NCBI GenBank assembly: GCA_903862655.1
Contig: CAIOZA010000095.1
Coordinates: 1-64,000 of the forward strand
Length of the DNA stretch: 64,000 nucleotides
Source of the DNA: an uncultured Ignavibacteria bacterium
Lineage (GTDB): Bacteria > Bacteroidota > Ignavibacteria > Kapaibacteriales > UBA2268
Direction: 5' to 3'
Of this stretch, positions 42,596 through 55,889 are shown piece by piece (position 1 is the stretch's first letter; every line of letters begins with the position of its first letter). The position numbers and the translations under genes were made by a program. The notes below the pieces were generated by a model, which was given only the letters and a program-made list of their open reading frames with translations, made no database searches and had not been told where the DNA came from.

Positions 42596-43912
42596 ATGAT
42601 TCATAAAAATATACTTTTTTGCATTTTGTTTCTTGTTTCTTTACTAGGTTCTTCGCATTCAGAAACACATAATTGGGCTGTTAACTTGAAGCTTCCCTAT
42701 TCCTCCAATTTTACTGGCATTTCAAAAGCTGATTCTTTGAATATCATGGCTTGTGCCAACTTTGAAACTTATCCCTCATTTAGACAAATCATCAAAACAA
42801 CTAATGGAGGTATAACCTGGAAAATGGTATATAATTTTAATGATAATAATTTAGGATGGTTTGAGGTTCAAAATATATGTTATCCCACTAAAAACTTCTG
42901 TATTGCCTCATGTGATTCCAACTATTTCTTGAAAACCACCGATGGAGGCGAAACATGGGTTCAGTTCCAAATTAAAATGGATTTGTTTACTAATGGCTTA
43001 ATTCATATCAGTTTACTCGATTCTTTAAATGGTATTATGGGTACTTATCGTAATATTGCTTTTTCAGATGATGGTTTTAAAACATATAAAATTTTGAAGC
43101 TTCCAAGACCATTAGTCATTGGAGATATAAAATTAGTCTCTTCGACTAAACTGTATCTATTGGCAGATAGTCCAATCAGTTTTTTTCAGTACGATATAAA
43201 AGAAGACTTATGGACTGAATATCCTGAATCTTTTCCGAAATATGATCCTGAATATAGAACACCTAATGGTATGTTTTTTTCTGATTCTCTTTTTGGTTAT
43301 GTAACAGGCAATAGGAGAGCAGATATTGGCGATGCATCTTATGACATGATTCACAAGACAACTGATTGCGGTAAAACCTGGGTAGAAAAATTTAATGCAT
43401 TAGTAAGTCCAAGAGGTGGTTTGACAGAAGTAGATTTCTGCGATAAAGAAAATGGGATAGCAGCGGGACCACAGGGCAAAATCTTCTGGACACATGATGC
43501 CGGAGAAACATGGTCTCAGGATTCAACACAAGCATTAATCAAAGCAACACCAGCGGTCATGCATGTTGCTAAGATAAACAAAAGCACAGCTCTAATCGCA
43601 GATTTCTCTGGAAATATGTGGAGAACACCAATAGGGACTGATATACCTAAAGTAAATGATGATGAATCAATGATATATCCCAATCCGGCTACGGATTTCA
43701 TAGAAATCTCCGTAGGGACACAGCTTGCTGTGTCCGATCAAAGCGATGTGAGGATTTATAATGTATTGGGTGAAATACAGACCACCCCGTCACTTCGTGA
43801 CACCCCTCCTTGGAAAGGAGTGGAAAAAGTAAGAATCAATGTTTCCAGCTTGGCACCGGGGATGTATTTTGTGAGGATAGGAGATCGAGTCAGTAAATTT
43901 GTCAAGTTGTAA
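42596..43912 (+). CDS. Secreted Ycf48-like propeller protein with T9SS sorting domain carrying two in-frame palindromic inserts
   Basis: The frame opens at 42521, but ATG 42596 gives the signal peptide (MIHKNILFCILFLVSLLGSSHS), for 438 residues. The body has Asp-box repeats (TTNGGITW, TTDGGETW, TTDCGKTW, THDAGETW) of the Ycf48/BNR propeller type. The C-terminus has the T9SS sorting domain (IYPNPATDFIEIS, then LAPGMYFVRIGDR). Two segments in that domain, coded at about 43712-43735 and 43781-43823, are palindromic elements related to intergenic repeats in this window. They add VGTQLAVS and TTPSLRDTPPWKGVE relative to the paralogue at 43979. The reading frame stays open. Confidence 0.8.
   Translation: MIHKNILFCILFLVSLLGSSHSETHNWAVNLKLPYSSNFTGISKADSLNIMACANFETYPSFRQIIKTTNGGITWKMVYNFNDNNLGWFEVQNICYPTKNFCIASCDSNYFLKTTDGGETWVQFQIKMDLFTNGLIHISLLDSLNGIMGTYRNIAFSDDGFKTYKILKLPRPLVIGDIKLVSSTKLYLLADSPISFFQYDIKEDLWTEYPESFPKYDPEYRTPNGMFFSDSLFGYVTGNRRADIGDASYDMIHKTTDCGKTWVEKFNALVSPRGGLTEVDFCDKENGIAAGPQGKIFWTHDAGETWSQDSTQALIKATPAVMHVAKINKSTALIADFSGNMWRTPIGTDIPKVNDDESMIYPNPATDFIEISVGTQLAVSDQSDVRIYNVLGEIQTTPSLRDTPPWKGVEKVRINVSSLAPGMYFVRIGDRVSKFVKL
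43712..43735 (+). repeat. Palindromic element inside the sorting-domain coding region (copy of the 53332 family)
   Basis: The 24 bases start with GTAGGG and contain a 9-bp stem, GGACACAGC with GCTGTGTCC. They match the complement of 53332-53355 except at three positions. Two of those differences are a compensatory pair in the stem (G-C to A-T), and the third is in the loop. The length is a multiple of three, so the frame is kept. Confidence 0.8.
43781..43823 (+). repeat. Second repeat element inside the sorting-domain coding region (copy of the 45378 family)
   Basis: This segment reads ACCACCCCGTC, a short CACTTCGTG palindrome, then CACCCCTCCTT and a GAG-TGG end. The complement of 45378-45426 has the same head (ACCACCCCGTC) and tail (CACCCCTCCTT, then AAA and GAGGGG), with a longer middle part. 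It codes for extra residues absent from the neighbouring paralogue. Confidence 0.7.
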
Positions 43913-43978: not shown

Positions 43979-45307
43979 ATGAAAAAAATTTCTATAGGTT
44001 TGATTTTATTATTATCCTTTTGTAATTCAATCCATTCTCAAGACAAAGACTGGAAGAAAGTTGATACAAGACCAGATTACTCAACAAAAATGACCTATAG
44101 TTCATATAGATCAATAAAATGTTTCGATTCATTAAATTGCATGATATACGGTGCATTATATGGTGCAGGTGGCTATTATTTCAGGAGAACAACAGACGGG
44201 GGGGATTCATGGAATACAATCTTTTCGGATTCTGCATATTTTATTGATTTTGGAAATGAGTATTGGGTGCCTGATTTACATGATATAGCTTATCCCAGCA
44301 GAAAAATATTTATTGCTGTGGGTGATTCAGGTTTAATAGTTAGAACAGCTGATAGCGGCAAAACTTGGCATAAATCAACCTATATAAAGAATTGTTATTT
44401 GTTCAGAATTAGAATGTTTGACGAAAATTATGGTATTATTGAAGGTTGTAAGAGACCATGTAATAATGATTCAGATGGTTTTTACTTAGAAACAATTGAT
44501 GGTGGCGAAACTTGGAATAAAATGATCAGACCGCCAGGCATTAGTTTTGCTGAATTTGAAATTGTAAATAGAAATCTAATTTGCGGTTTAACATGGTTAA
44601 CAACTCCAGACTCATTAAGGAAAGAATATATAATTTGGGTTCATGATGGGTGGAAATCGTTTGATACAGTTCCCAAGCCTACCTATGGATTTCATTTTGA
44701 CTTTATTAATGAAAAAAAAGGATGGATATCCGGTGGAAAAAAAATACTATATCAAGGGTTTAATGTTTGGACACAAGTTATATATCATACATCAGACGGT
44801 GGAAAAACATTTGATATTCAAAGAGATACTATGTACAATGGAGTACCTATTGATGATATAAAATTTTATGATGAAAATTTCGGAATAGGTGCAAGCGAAG
44901 TTAGTCATGTAGTTATGACAGATAACGGAGGTAAGAATTGGAGAAATGTTAAAATTGCCTATACAAAACCCAATGATGGTTATTCATATATCGTATTGAG
45001 CATTCAAATTCCCTCATATACTACTGCTTATGTAATTCTTGAATATGATTATATATACAAATACACCCGCGACTGGACAGATGTGGTGGAAGAAAAAATC
45101 GATACTGATTTTGAGGTTTCCCCCAATCCGGCTACGGATTTCATAGAAATAAAGCAGGTAACAACTAAACCAATTGCAATATATTCAGTTCTAGGTATTA
45201 AACTTATCGAATCTGAATACAAAGAGAAAATAGACGTCTCCGGCTTGGCTCCGGGGATGTATTTTGTGAGAATAGGGGATAAGGTTAGCAAGTTTATAAA
45301 AATATAA
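43979..45307 (+). CDS. Secreted Ycf48-like propeller protein with T9SS sorting domain (paralogue)
   Basis: This 442-residue protein has a signal peptide (MKKISIGLILLLSFCNSIHS). It carries five Asp-box-like repeats (TTDGGDSW, TADSGKTW, TIDGGETW, TSDGGKTF, TDNGGKNW), which suggest a Ycf48/BNR-type propeller. The type A sorting domain (SPNPATDFIEI, then LAPGMYFVRIGDKVSKFIKI) marks it for T9SS export. It is a paralogue of the preceding gene. The sorting-domain DNA of the two shares 29 identical bases (43679-43707 and 45122-45150), which is closer than the rest of the genes. The ribosome-binding site AGGAGAG is strong. Confidence 0.82.
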   Translation: MKKISIGLILLLSFCNSIHSQDKDWKKVDTRPDYSTKMTYSSYRSIKCFDSLNCMIYGALYGAGGYYFRRTTDGGDSWNTIFSDSAYFIDFGNEYWVPDLHDIAYPSRKIFIAVGDSGLIVRTADSGKTWHKSTYIKNCYLFRIRMFDENYGIIEGCKRPCNNDSDGFYLETIDGGETWNKMIRPPGISFAEFEIVNRNLICGLTWLTTPDSLRKEYIIWVHDGWKSFDTVPKPTYGFHFDFINEKKGWISGGKKILYQGFNVWTQVIYHTSDGGKTFDIQRDTMYNGVPIDDIKFYDENFGIGASEVSHVVMTDNGGKNWRNVKIAYTKPNDGYSYIVLSIQIPSYTTAYVILEYDYIYKYTRDWTDVVEEKIDTDFEVSPNPATDFIEIKQVTTKPIAIYSVLGIKLIESEYKEKIDVSGLAPGMYFVRIGDKVSKFIKI

Positions 45308-45377: not shown

Positions 45378-45426
45378 CCCCTCATTTTTAAGGAGGGGTG
45401 GATCGACGCAGTCGAGACGGGGTGGT
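45378..45426 (-). repeat. Dispersed repeat related to the insert at 43781
   Basis: It contains CCCCTCATTTTTAAGGAGGGG, then a GATCGACGCAGTCGAGAC palindromic middle, then GGGGTGGT. Its complement has the same two ends as the element coded inside the T9SS gene at 43781-43823. Confidence 0.75.
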
Positions 45427-45784
45427 AATAGCATTAATTCCCTCTCCAATTGTCGGAGAGCGTTAGAGTGAGGAAAATTCTGTATTTATTGCCCATTAAT
45501 CCTTGCTCGTTGTTCCTTGAAATGAGCTACGTAGTAGCGTACTGTTTGTAGAAAAAAAATAACAGAACGAACCAAATCTCCATCGGAGCGACCTGAAATC
45601 AAAAAAAGCGTTGAAATTGATGCAAAAGTGCAAACCCAAAAGAAATGTCATTGAAATATAAAGAGGTTACAAACATTTTATATAACTTATTATTCATTAA
45701 AATAGTGCAAAAGATGCAAAAAAAAATGCAAAAGATGCAGTAATATAATGCAAATAGTCTAACTATCTTCCCCTCTGCGGACAA
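45427..45784. other. Gene-free repeat-rich stretch with TGCA-rich tracts
   Basis: I see no gene. A small palindrome, CTCTCC-AATTGTC-GGAGAG, lies at 45442-45460. A CTACGTAG-centred element is near 45528-45535. From about 45617 to 45757 the sequence repeats TGCAAA/TGCAAAAGA units (for example GTGCAAAAGATGCAAAA near 45706). Short frames in this tract are compositional. Similar TGCA-rich sequence follows tamB at 52325-52361. Confidence 0.6.
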
Positions 45785-45895
45785 AGAATCGATGTCTCCG
45801 GCTTGACTCCGGGCATGTATTTTGTGCGGATTGGGGATAGAGTTAAAGAATTATTCTTATATCTGTTTGAGATAAATTTACTATTAATGCTTTAG
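45785..45895 (+). pseudogene. Orphan remnant of a T9SS sorting domain
   Basis: In the plus frame, 45785-45844 reads RIDVSGLTPGMYFVRIGDRV, then runs into KELFLYLFEIN and a stop at 45893-45895. It is almost the same as the C-terminus of the protein at 43979 (KIDVSGLAPGMYFVRIGDKV). No signal peptide, propeller or start codon precedes it, only TGCA-rich sequence. It is therefore the last piece of a lost third cargo gene, or a stray sorting-domain cassette. Its end overlaps the last bases of the convergent histidine kinase gene. Confidence 0.78.
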
Positions 45896-53331: not shown

Positions 53332-53396
53332 GGACACGGCACGCCGTGTCCCTACAGGATGAAAATGTCAAGGGCGGGTTTAGAACCCGCCCCTAC
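53332..53396. repeat. Two adjacent palindromic elements, each with a CCTAC/GTAGG end
   Basis: The first palindrome (53332-53351) has stem GGACACGGC with GCCGTGTCC and ends in CCCTAC at 53355. The second (53372-53392) has stem GGGCGGGTT with AACCCGCCC and ends in CCCTAC at 53396. The first is the same family as the insert inside the T9SS gene at 43712-43735. They lie between the cysS gene and the outer-membrane protein gene. Confidence 0.85.
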
Positions 53397-54915: not shown

Positions 54916-55251
54916 AATTTTACATCCATAATTTTAATTGATTTTATCAGAAAGTTCAAGTTTGTCATTCTGATGGGGCGTAGCGACTGAAGAATCCAGT
55001 ATTTATTCGGACTAGATTCCTGCATTCGCAGGAATGACAGCATTTTAGTGAATTGTGATTAGTGTTTAGTTAATACAAATACACTGTATTCACTTCGTCA
55101 GGCTTCCGGCACTTCACTGCGTTCAGAATAACTGCCTTTTACTGTATTCAACTTCGTTATTCGGTGTTCAATATTCGATATTCATCCAGATTCCTCACTT
55201 CGTTCGGAATGACAATACAGTTAGATTCCTGCATACGCAGGAATGACACCG
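54916..55251. repeat. Repeat cluster between cysS and osmC
   Basis: No gene is seen. Elements include GTCATTCTGA plus GCGTAGCGAC (54964-54997), a palindrome AGATTCCTGCAT/CGCAGGAATGAC (55014-55038), and a 60-base composite at 55188-55247 that ends with the same palindrome. The composite recurs at 55814-55873 on the other side of osmC with 5 mismatches in 60, in the same orientation. Confidence 0.85.
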
Positions 55252-55671
55252 TTATGGTCTTGTCAATACACACTCATAAGAGACATTGCAACCAGATCTT
55301 TTGAACATATTCGCAACTCCGCAGTATGTTTCCTGTGATAACTGAACAGCTCTTTCCAGTTCTGCCAATTCAGCATCGGGACTGATCAGTTCTACAATCA
55401 TCCAGACATCAGTTATTACCATAGGATGGTCTTTCGCGCGTTCAGCCTTCAGGTTAATTTTGAGATCGACAACAGTTTTTCTCTTTTTACGAATTATTGA
55501 AATCACATCCAGATAACCGCACGCTCCCATAGCTTCGAGAGCAATTTCCATTGGAGTAGGCGCAGAATCATCACCACCTGATTGAGTATGAGTATCGAAG
55601 TAAGTTTCATGCCCTAGAGCATTAGTACCTATGATACGCATGTTTTTGTCTAATTTTAGATTTACTTCCAT
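55252..55671 (-). CDS. OsmC/Ohr-family peroxiredoxin-like protein
   Basis: This 139-residue protein belongs to the OsmC family, which reduces organic hydroperoxides with two cysteines. Both are present: C51 in EAMGACGYLDVISI and C117 in SQETYCGVANMF. The PTPMEIALEAMGACG stretch is typical of the YhfA-like OsmC branch rather than Ohr. The enzyme is cytoplasmic. Its stop lies only 4 bases from the end of the repeat at 55188-55247, and a second copy of that repeat lies upstream, so the gene is bracketed by direct repeats. Confidence 0.88.
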   Translation of the reverse strand: MEVNLKLDKNMRIIGTNALGHETYFDTHTQSGGDDSAPTPMEIALEAMGACGYLDVISIIRKKRKTVVDLKINLKAERAKDHPMVITDVWMIVELISPDAELAELERAVQLSQETYCGVANMFKRSGCNVSYECVLTRP

Positions 55672-55889
55672 AATACAAATTTAATAAGAATGATAATTAT
55701 CGTTTAAATAGATTCCTGTATTTGAGATTCTATAAAAATTACGATTACGTCATTCTGAGGGAGCGTAGCGACCGTGAGAATCCAGGCTGATTTACAGGAA
55801 AATACAAATACATGGATTCTTCACTTCGTTCAGAATGACAATACAATTAGATTCCTGCATGCGCAGGAATGACGTGTACTTAACGCTAA
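55672..55889. repeat. Repeat cluster upstream of osmC
   Basis: It holds a copy of the GTCATTCTGA/GCGTAGCGAC element at 55749-55783. The 60-base composite is at 55814-55873, in the same orientation as the copies in 54964-55247. No gene is seen. Confidence 0.85.

Follow-up and report, generated by a model that had tools for sequence, protein, structure and literature searches.

Why should a gene for a putative secreted protein carry, in frame and within its C-terminal sorting domain, short DNA palindromes that recur between genes elsewhere on the same contig? The question arises from a stretch of 64,000 nucleotides (the window) of an uncultured Ignavibacteria bacterium. A sequence-only reading of the window had pointed to two inserts in the gene at 42596-43912 and likened them to Rickettsia palindromic elements (RPEs). 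Here, we trace the two inserts through this genome and its relatives, and weigh the explanations for their presence.

Palindromic DNA in the window gene

The features of the window that bear on the question are as follows.

42596-43912, forward strand: putative T9SS cargo gene, with PSII_BNR/Ycf48-like beta-propeller repeats followed by Por_Secre_tail; the mechanical ORF reaches 42521
43673-43909, forward strand: T9SS type A sorting domain (CTD) with both palindromic inserts, from PF18962 and TIGR04183 matches and an AlphaFold2 model
43712-43744, forward strand: site A insert, a GTAG-type palindrome (43712-43735) plus a tail, read as VGTQLAVSDQS, between predicted strands 1 and 2
43781-43823, forward strand: site B insert, a two-hairpin element, ACCACCCCGTCACTTCGTGACACCCCTCCTTGGAAAGGAGTGG, in frame, between predicted strands 3 and 4
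43979-45307, forward strand: tandem paralogue, its CTD without palindromic inserts
45378-45426, reverse strand: intergenic two-part element with ends in common with the site B insert
45779-45871, forward strand: orphan CTD 3' end that breaks off at site B and is part of no long ORF
53332-53355, reverse strand: intergenic copy of the site A palindrome
53372-53392, unstranded: second intergenic palindrome, GGGCGGGTTTAGAACCCGCCC, of a family that fills loops of other CTDs (AGLEPAPT / AGSEPALT)

The C-terminus of the gene product matches PF18962 above the curated cut-off (44.6 bits against 27, E 1.8e-11) and TIGR04183 likewise (36.3 bits against a curated cut-off of 23), and the reading frame stays open through both inserts. 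The palindrome of site A, GTAGGGACACAGCTTGCTGTGTCC, differs at three positions from the complement of 53332-53355, GTAGGGACACGGCGTGCCGTGTCC, and two of these differences form a compensated change of an A-T to a G-C pair; dinucleotide shuffles of the window gave an expectation of 0 for such a match. The site B insert and the complement of 45378-45426 have both ends in common, namely ACCACCCCGTC and an CCACCCCTCCTT-like sequence. To this extent the initial description of the locus was accurate, as it was in finding the paralogue at 43979-45307 free of inserts, its CTD loops being short and non-palindromic. The nearest relatives of the second insert, however, lie in two other sorting-domain genes and not at 45378-45426. 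Elsewhere in the window, a further repeat, TAGATTCCTGCATNCGCAGGAATGAC, is present in three close-set copies (55013-55049, 55222-55258 and 55848-55884).

Filled loops across the genome

The assembly (4.07 Mb in 148 contigs, 98% complete) was sampled in 100 stretches that contain 147 of the 150 scored CTDs, and 16 further stretches were added later. Searches with both elements recovered the additional copies that the sequence-only reading anticipated. The first palindrome has 17 genomic copies, six of which (the window gene included) occupy the same sorting-domain site while 11 lie outside CTDs; the second element has three strict copies, again counting the window gene, and all three are at the same CTD site. 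Another palindrome, GTAGGGGCGAACGGCCGTTCGCCCTTAC, is present in about 27 copies, nearly all at one CTD site and in the same frame.

The domains with palindromic loops belong to a CTD subtype that can be written NPASDFIEIS - loop A - VRIYNVFGQ - loop B - RIDVSGLAPGMYFVRIGDRVSKFVKL. Peptides found at site A include VGANGRSPLQS, VGTRRAVSEQS, VGAGSEPALTG, YPPLERGSGGV, INPMLKHGVEYS and LSENFQFSES, and those at site B include VGVIHELPLR, VGVQNLEPLR, WAGLEPAPT, LTPTLSTSGEG, NPTPTLPASREG, VCSADTPASGG and SLRDTPPWKGG. Among the 56 automatically anchored domains of the subtype, both loops are filled in 48, neither in eight and a single loop in none, where a filled loop is one whose peptide comes from a recognised family, the stem having decayed in some copies. 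At least two decorated domains (C24:69865 and C33:9244) lie beyond the automatic anchors. The window gene is thus one of at least 48 genes with in-frame palindromic DNA in both CTD loops, and the occupants, drawn from at least 10 palindrome families, form 20 different combinations of loop A with loop B.

Within 571 kb (14% of the genome), hairpins that are rich in GC and have stems of at least 9 reach densities of 0.965 per kb in CTDs, 0.425 per kb in non-ORF DNA and 0.017 per kb in other ORFs, an excess of about 57-fold in the CTDs over other ORFs; these stretches were picked around CTDs, and the non-ORF value may therefore misrepresent the whole genome. Elements of the GTAG type start on a codon boundary (phase 0) in 63 of 64 cases from the CTDs of six genomes, a bias that is partly forced, because one alternative phase would read the TAG as a stop, although the third phase would be open. 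The CTDs at G000:C31:157-372 and C53:45762-45977 are nearly identical and both lie at contig ends, possibly as one repeat that broke the assembly.

Position of the inserts in the domain

The first description placed the inserts in turns, and the AlphaFold2 prediction for this CTD, made from 63 sequences with a pLDDT of 75.5, agrees with this by assigning both to inter-strand loops. The model has six strands of at least 3 residues, where a type A sorting domain is a seven-stranded Ig-like beta-sandwich. Insert A corresponds to residues 20-30, between strands at 15-19 and 32-35, and insert B to residues 44-55, between strands at 41-43 and 58-62; the mean pLDDT is about 54-69 around the loops and reaches 93 in the core. 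Foldseek matches to 8qb1 and 8glk had a TM of about 0.6 with weak E-values (0.03-0.1), and the matches, also weak by E-value, include the T. forsythia mirolase CTD and a chain of the T9SS NucA complex. The domain shares the conserved C-terminal signal of T9SS type A CTDs (PF18962 / TIGR04183) such as that of RgpB (PMC4804311), from which it differs in that two inter-strand loops are enlarged by repeat-derived peptides. We read these loops as the counterparts of s1-s2 and s3-s4 in RgpB.

How could a secretion signal accommodate such changes? Decorated CTDs keep the core strands and the export motifs. The P. gingivalis CTD is a beta-sandwich export signal that is removed by PorU (PMC4804311), and if the same cleavage applies here, the mature protein would lack the inserted peptides, and this would account for their tolerance. 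Peptides such as VGTQLAVSDQSDVR would then exist in the precursor and be missing from the mature surface protein.

Relatives and probable exchange between sites

Among 40 relatives, the subtype is abundant in genera of the same family, with 71 matches in Loclat_bin-16206 (G009), 49 in G018, 31 in G020, 25 in G017, 23 in Candidatus Kapaibacterium LacPavin_0818_WC55_MAG_34_17 (G008) and 20 in G014, while genomes from other families of the order have 0-4. Decorated CTDs are also present in GWF2_33_9 (G050), RIFOXYC2_FULL_35_21 (G049) and WY4.bin46 (G048). The named relatives found by way of isocitrate dehydrogenase are MAGs of Kapabacteria/Ignavibacteria, and it is on this footing that we call the family Kapabacteria-like. 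The loops of the relatives are palindromic as well, often with palindromes other than those of this genome, and they encode different peptides: SPAGGGRGWT, VGAGSKPAL, SPSIKRGQGGV and VISNEVRNPG in G009, VETGLRPVST and VETQHAVSLQ in G018, and NKGACSLVP in G014. These different peptides come with palindromic DNA of their own, and the same peptides without the repeat, the outcome that would have spoken against inserted elements, were not encountered. An assembly artefact is ruled out, since independently obtained genomes from several genera show the pattern again. The relatives include no further genome of this genus, so that the insertions cannot be dated.

One perfect palindrome of 28 nucleotides, GTAGGGGCAATTCATGAATTGCCCCTAC, is present in sorting domains of three genera: it fills site A in G009, and site B both here and in G050. 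Across the phylum it was present in 10 of the 296 genomes sampled, this genome and nine of other families; among those ten loci, that of the present genome is a CTD and that of G062 falls in a transposase gene, while no CTD is seen at the remaining eight, most of which are intergenic. Three CTDs of G009 (L210, L211 and L223) have a loop A that reads VGAGSKPALENPG and retains the tail of VISNEVRNPG, which looks like a newer element that has replaced most of an older one.

A tree was built from the CTD core without its loops, about 45 residues. Genome labels need 12 changes on this tree against a shuffled mean of 42, and the distinction between decorated and undecorated domains needs 2 against 7.7. 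The types of element within this genome are placed close to randomly (20 changes for site A against 19.7 in shuffles, 25 for site B against 28.6), with the reservation that a core this short may resolve the within-genome tree poorly. In four of five palindrome families tested, the element has diverged less between CTDs than the CTD sequence that flanks it. Taken as sequence comparisons, these results suggest that the elements move INDEPENDENTLY of the host domain.

A proposed pathway and a possible transposase link

The account that we favour, as probable though well short of assured, is that in one CTD lineage of this Kapabacteria-like family two loops exchange in-frame REP-like palindromes, which are tolerated in an export tag. 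The domain would have multiplied with its loops already filled, as we infer, and the occupants would then have been replaced repeatedly, either by insertion of a new REP or by recombination between copies that share GTAGGG...CCCTAC ends. The GTAG-type elements were probably moved, now or formerly, by 'MPNH' Y1_Tnp/RAYT-like HUH transposases, whose genes carry them. Tolerance of such replacement would come from the place of the loops, away from the conserved core, and from the role of the CTD as an export tag that is cut off after translocation in P. gingivalis.

The genome contains 14 matches to Y1_Tnp (PF01797). Two MPNHxH ORFs, at C6:82403 (L028) and C22:44468 (L030), contain the GGGCGGGTT..AACCCGCCC palindrome in frame, in degenerate form in C6, with the derived peptides RAGLESAPT and VSAGSEPAPT in the C6 and C22 ORFs, and the C6 gene has in addition an intact GTAG palindrome, GTAGGGGCGGGTTCCAAACCCGCCC, 5' of its ATG. 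A similar MPNH ORF at G050:C30:44620 (L391) encodes VETGLRPVS twice, and one at G062:C2:2142359 (L398), in a genome of another class, encodes VGAIHELPLP. In these IS200/Y1_Tnp-like MPNHxH ORFs (L028, L030, L391 and L398), the GTAG palindromes lie in frame in the stretch right behind the motif and are read in the phase used in CTDs. The other Y1_Tnp genes are not flanked by a CTD-type palindrome as C6:82403 is. At G000:C97:9740 (L023), the one Y1_Tnp gene with palindromes on both sides has CCACGAGCTNNAGCTCGTGG hairpins, which recur between other genes and were not seen in CTDs, a point against the transposase link; to judge from this arrangement, the locus looks like an ordinary REPtron.

These genes suggest MPNH-type Y1_Tnp transposases as movers of the CTD palindromes, although the transposase gene could be merely another insert-tolerant gene. 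Perhaps the MPNH-type HUH transposases insert and swap REPs directly in two fixed export-signal loops of dozens of secreted proteins. This cassette exchange is a tentative idea that we hold to be rather improbable; if it were true, mobile DNA would be continually rewriting the loops of a secretion tag.

Other explanations for the filled loops

If one ancestral CTD acquired both palindromes and was then copied onto many cargo genes, there would seem to be no need for any traffic of elements: the variety would come from mutation and recombination among CTDs only. The all-or-none occupancy of the two loops fits such inheritance, as does the way in which decorated CTDs group together on the core tree, and two pairs of tandem duplicates (C58:9946/12142 and C31:5291/7216) do retain an identical element pair. 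Moreover, several palindromes hardly occur elsewhere than in CTDs. Palindrome A1 of this genome and GTAGAGACA of G018 occur almost only in CTDs or CTD remnants, including nine of nine copies of one palindrome in G018, and for A1 and GTAGAGACA the duplication or conversion of CTDs suffices and transposition is not needed. Orphan sorting-domain 3' ends, broken at or near loop B and outside long ORFs, were seen at 45779-45871 in the window and at C76:34085, C142:2765, C140:4843 and C6:69619 of G000. Considering these isolated ends at several places together with the G018 palindrome, duplication and decay of CTD pieces are part of the picture. Inheritance alone, however, leaves several facts unaccommodated. 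The occupants have unrelated sequences (GTAGGGACAC.., CCCCCTCTTGAGAGGGGG.., GTCATTTCGAACGAAG..), the sets of elements differ between genera, the exact 28-mer changes site from one genus to another and turns up between genes in other families, and the first palindrome of the window is mostly outside CTDs. As the whole explanation, we find it doubtful.

Could the palindromes instead be selected, as RNA hairpins near the gene 3' end, as DNA sites or as a source of surface-loop diversity, rather than being tolerated parasites? Both loops are almost always occupied, the hairpins lie near the gene 3' end, where REPs commonly lie (PMC3733652), and perfect pairing is kept in some copies. Against this, eight CTDs of the subtype are without palindromes and have intact cores. 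Covariation in the one palindrome family tested was weak, with two pairs changed on both sides and 36 of 500 shuffles reaching as many, and is too little to argue for selection, which we judge unlikely.

The remaining explanations fare worse. The inserts in the window gene are real, but their interpretation as two independent, recent insertions of RPE-like elements into this gene alone did not survive the genome-wide comparison. It drew on the undecorated tandem paralogue next door and on the related intergenic repeats in the window, but 47 further CTDs have elements at both of these sites, and the strict copies of the second element are, all three, in CTDs at the same position, so that we regard it as very improbable. 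Chance, or protein-level convergence on loop peptides that happen to have palindromic DNA, has nothing in its favour except the short length of each loop and is ruled out, to our satisfaction, by the shuffles (no match expected in the window; stems of at least 8 in 54% of site A loops and 34% of site B loops, where shuffled loops give about 0.4%) and by the exact DNA copies outside CTDs.

Relation to known repeat elements

GTAG-type REPs are hairpins of 20-40 bp that start with GTAG (Di Nocera et al. 2013, PMC3733652). The present elements resemble them in forming short GTAG hairpins (for example GTAGGGACACGGCGTGCCGTGTCC) of several families per genome, and intragenic copies of REPs are known. 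By the definition of 20-40 bp with GTAG at one end, the palindrome at 43712-43735 (24 nt) and families A1, A3 and B6 belong to this type, and families A4 and B2-B5, without GTAG, fall outside it. REPs are also multicopy and mostly intergenic; of the first palindrome, 11 of 17 copies lie outside CTDs, and A1 is found mostly in CTDs. The intragenic REPs published so far are spread over unrelated genes (uvrA, recB, dnaE2 and others) and share few sites (PMC3733652), whereas those described here sit in the same two loops of a single domain in about 50 paralogues, where the families are exchanged.

The likeness to RPEs stands insofar as these, too, are palindromic repeats that add peptide segments in frame. 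In Rickettsia, however, RPEs lie in a range of unrelated genes, and those of the RPE-1 class are longer elements (Di Nocera et al. 2013, PMC3733652), in contrast to the single secretion domain and the GTAG-REP look seen here; the elements are closer to GTAG-type REPs than to Rickettsia RPEs. With the RAYT / REPtron system (Nunvar et al. 2010, PMC2817692) they have in common the Y1_Tnp genes, among them the C6 gene with its intact GTAG palindrome 5' of the start codon, and differ from it in that the 'MPNH' ORFs also hold palindromes in frame inside the gene. Palindromic repeats in T9SS cargo were thought at the outset to be undescribed, and our searches of the literature on Kapabacteria and T9SS, on T9SS and palindromic repeats, and on RPEs found no description of them.

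Implications

A class of repeats that is usually intergenic appears, from the copies compared here, to have repeatedly colonised a secretion tag. REPs have been seen mainly as intergenic elements and their intragenic cases as scattered accidents; in this family, the copies are gathered in one domain, in dozens of paralogues and in several genera. The system opens to test the choice of sites by REPs, their present mobilisation by RAYT-like proteins and the tolerance of a secretion signal to sequence change, and the decorated domains constitute a natural set of loop-insertion variants with which recognition of the T9SS signal could be mapped.
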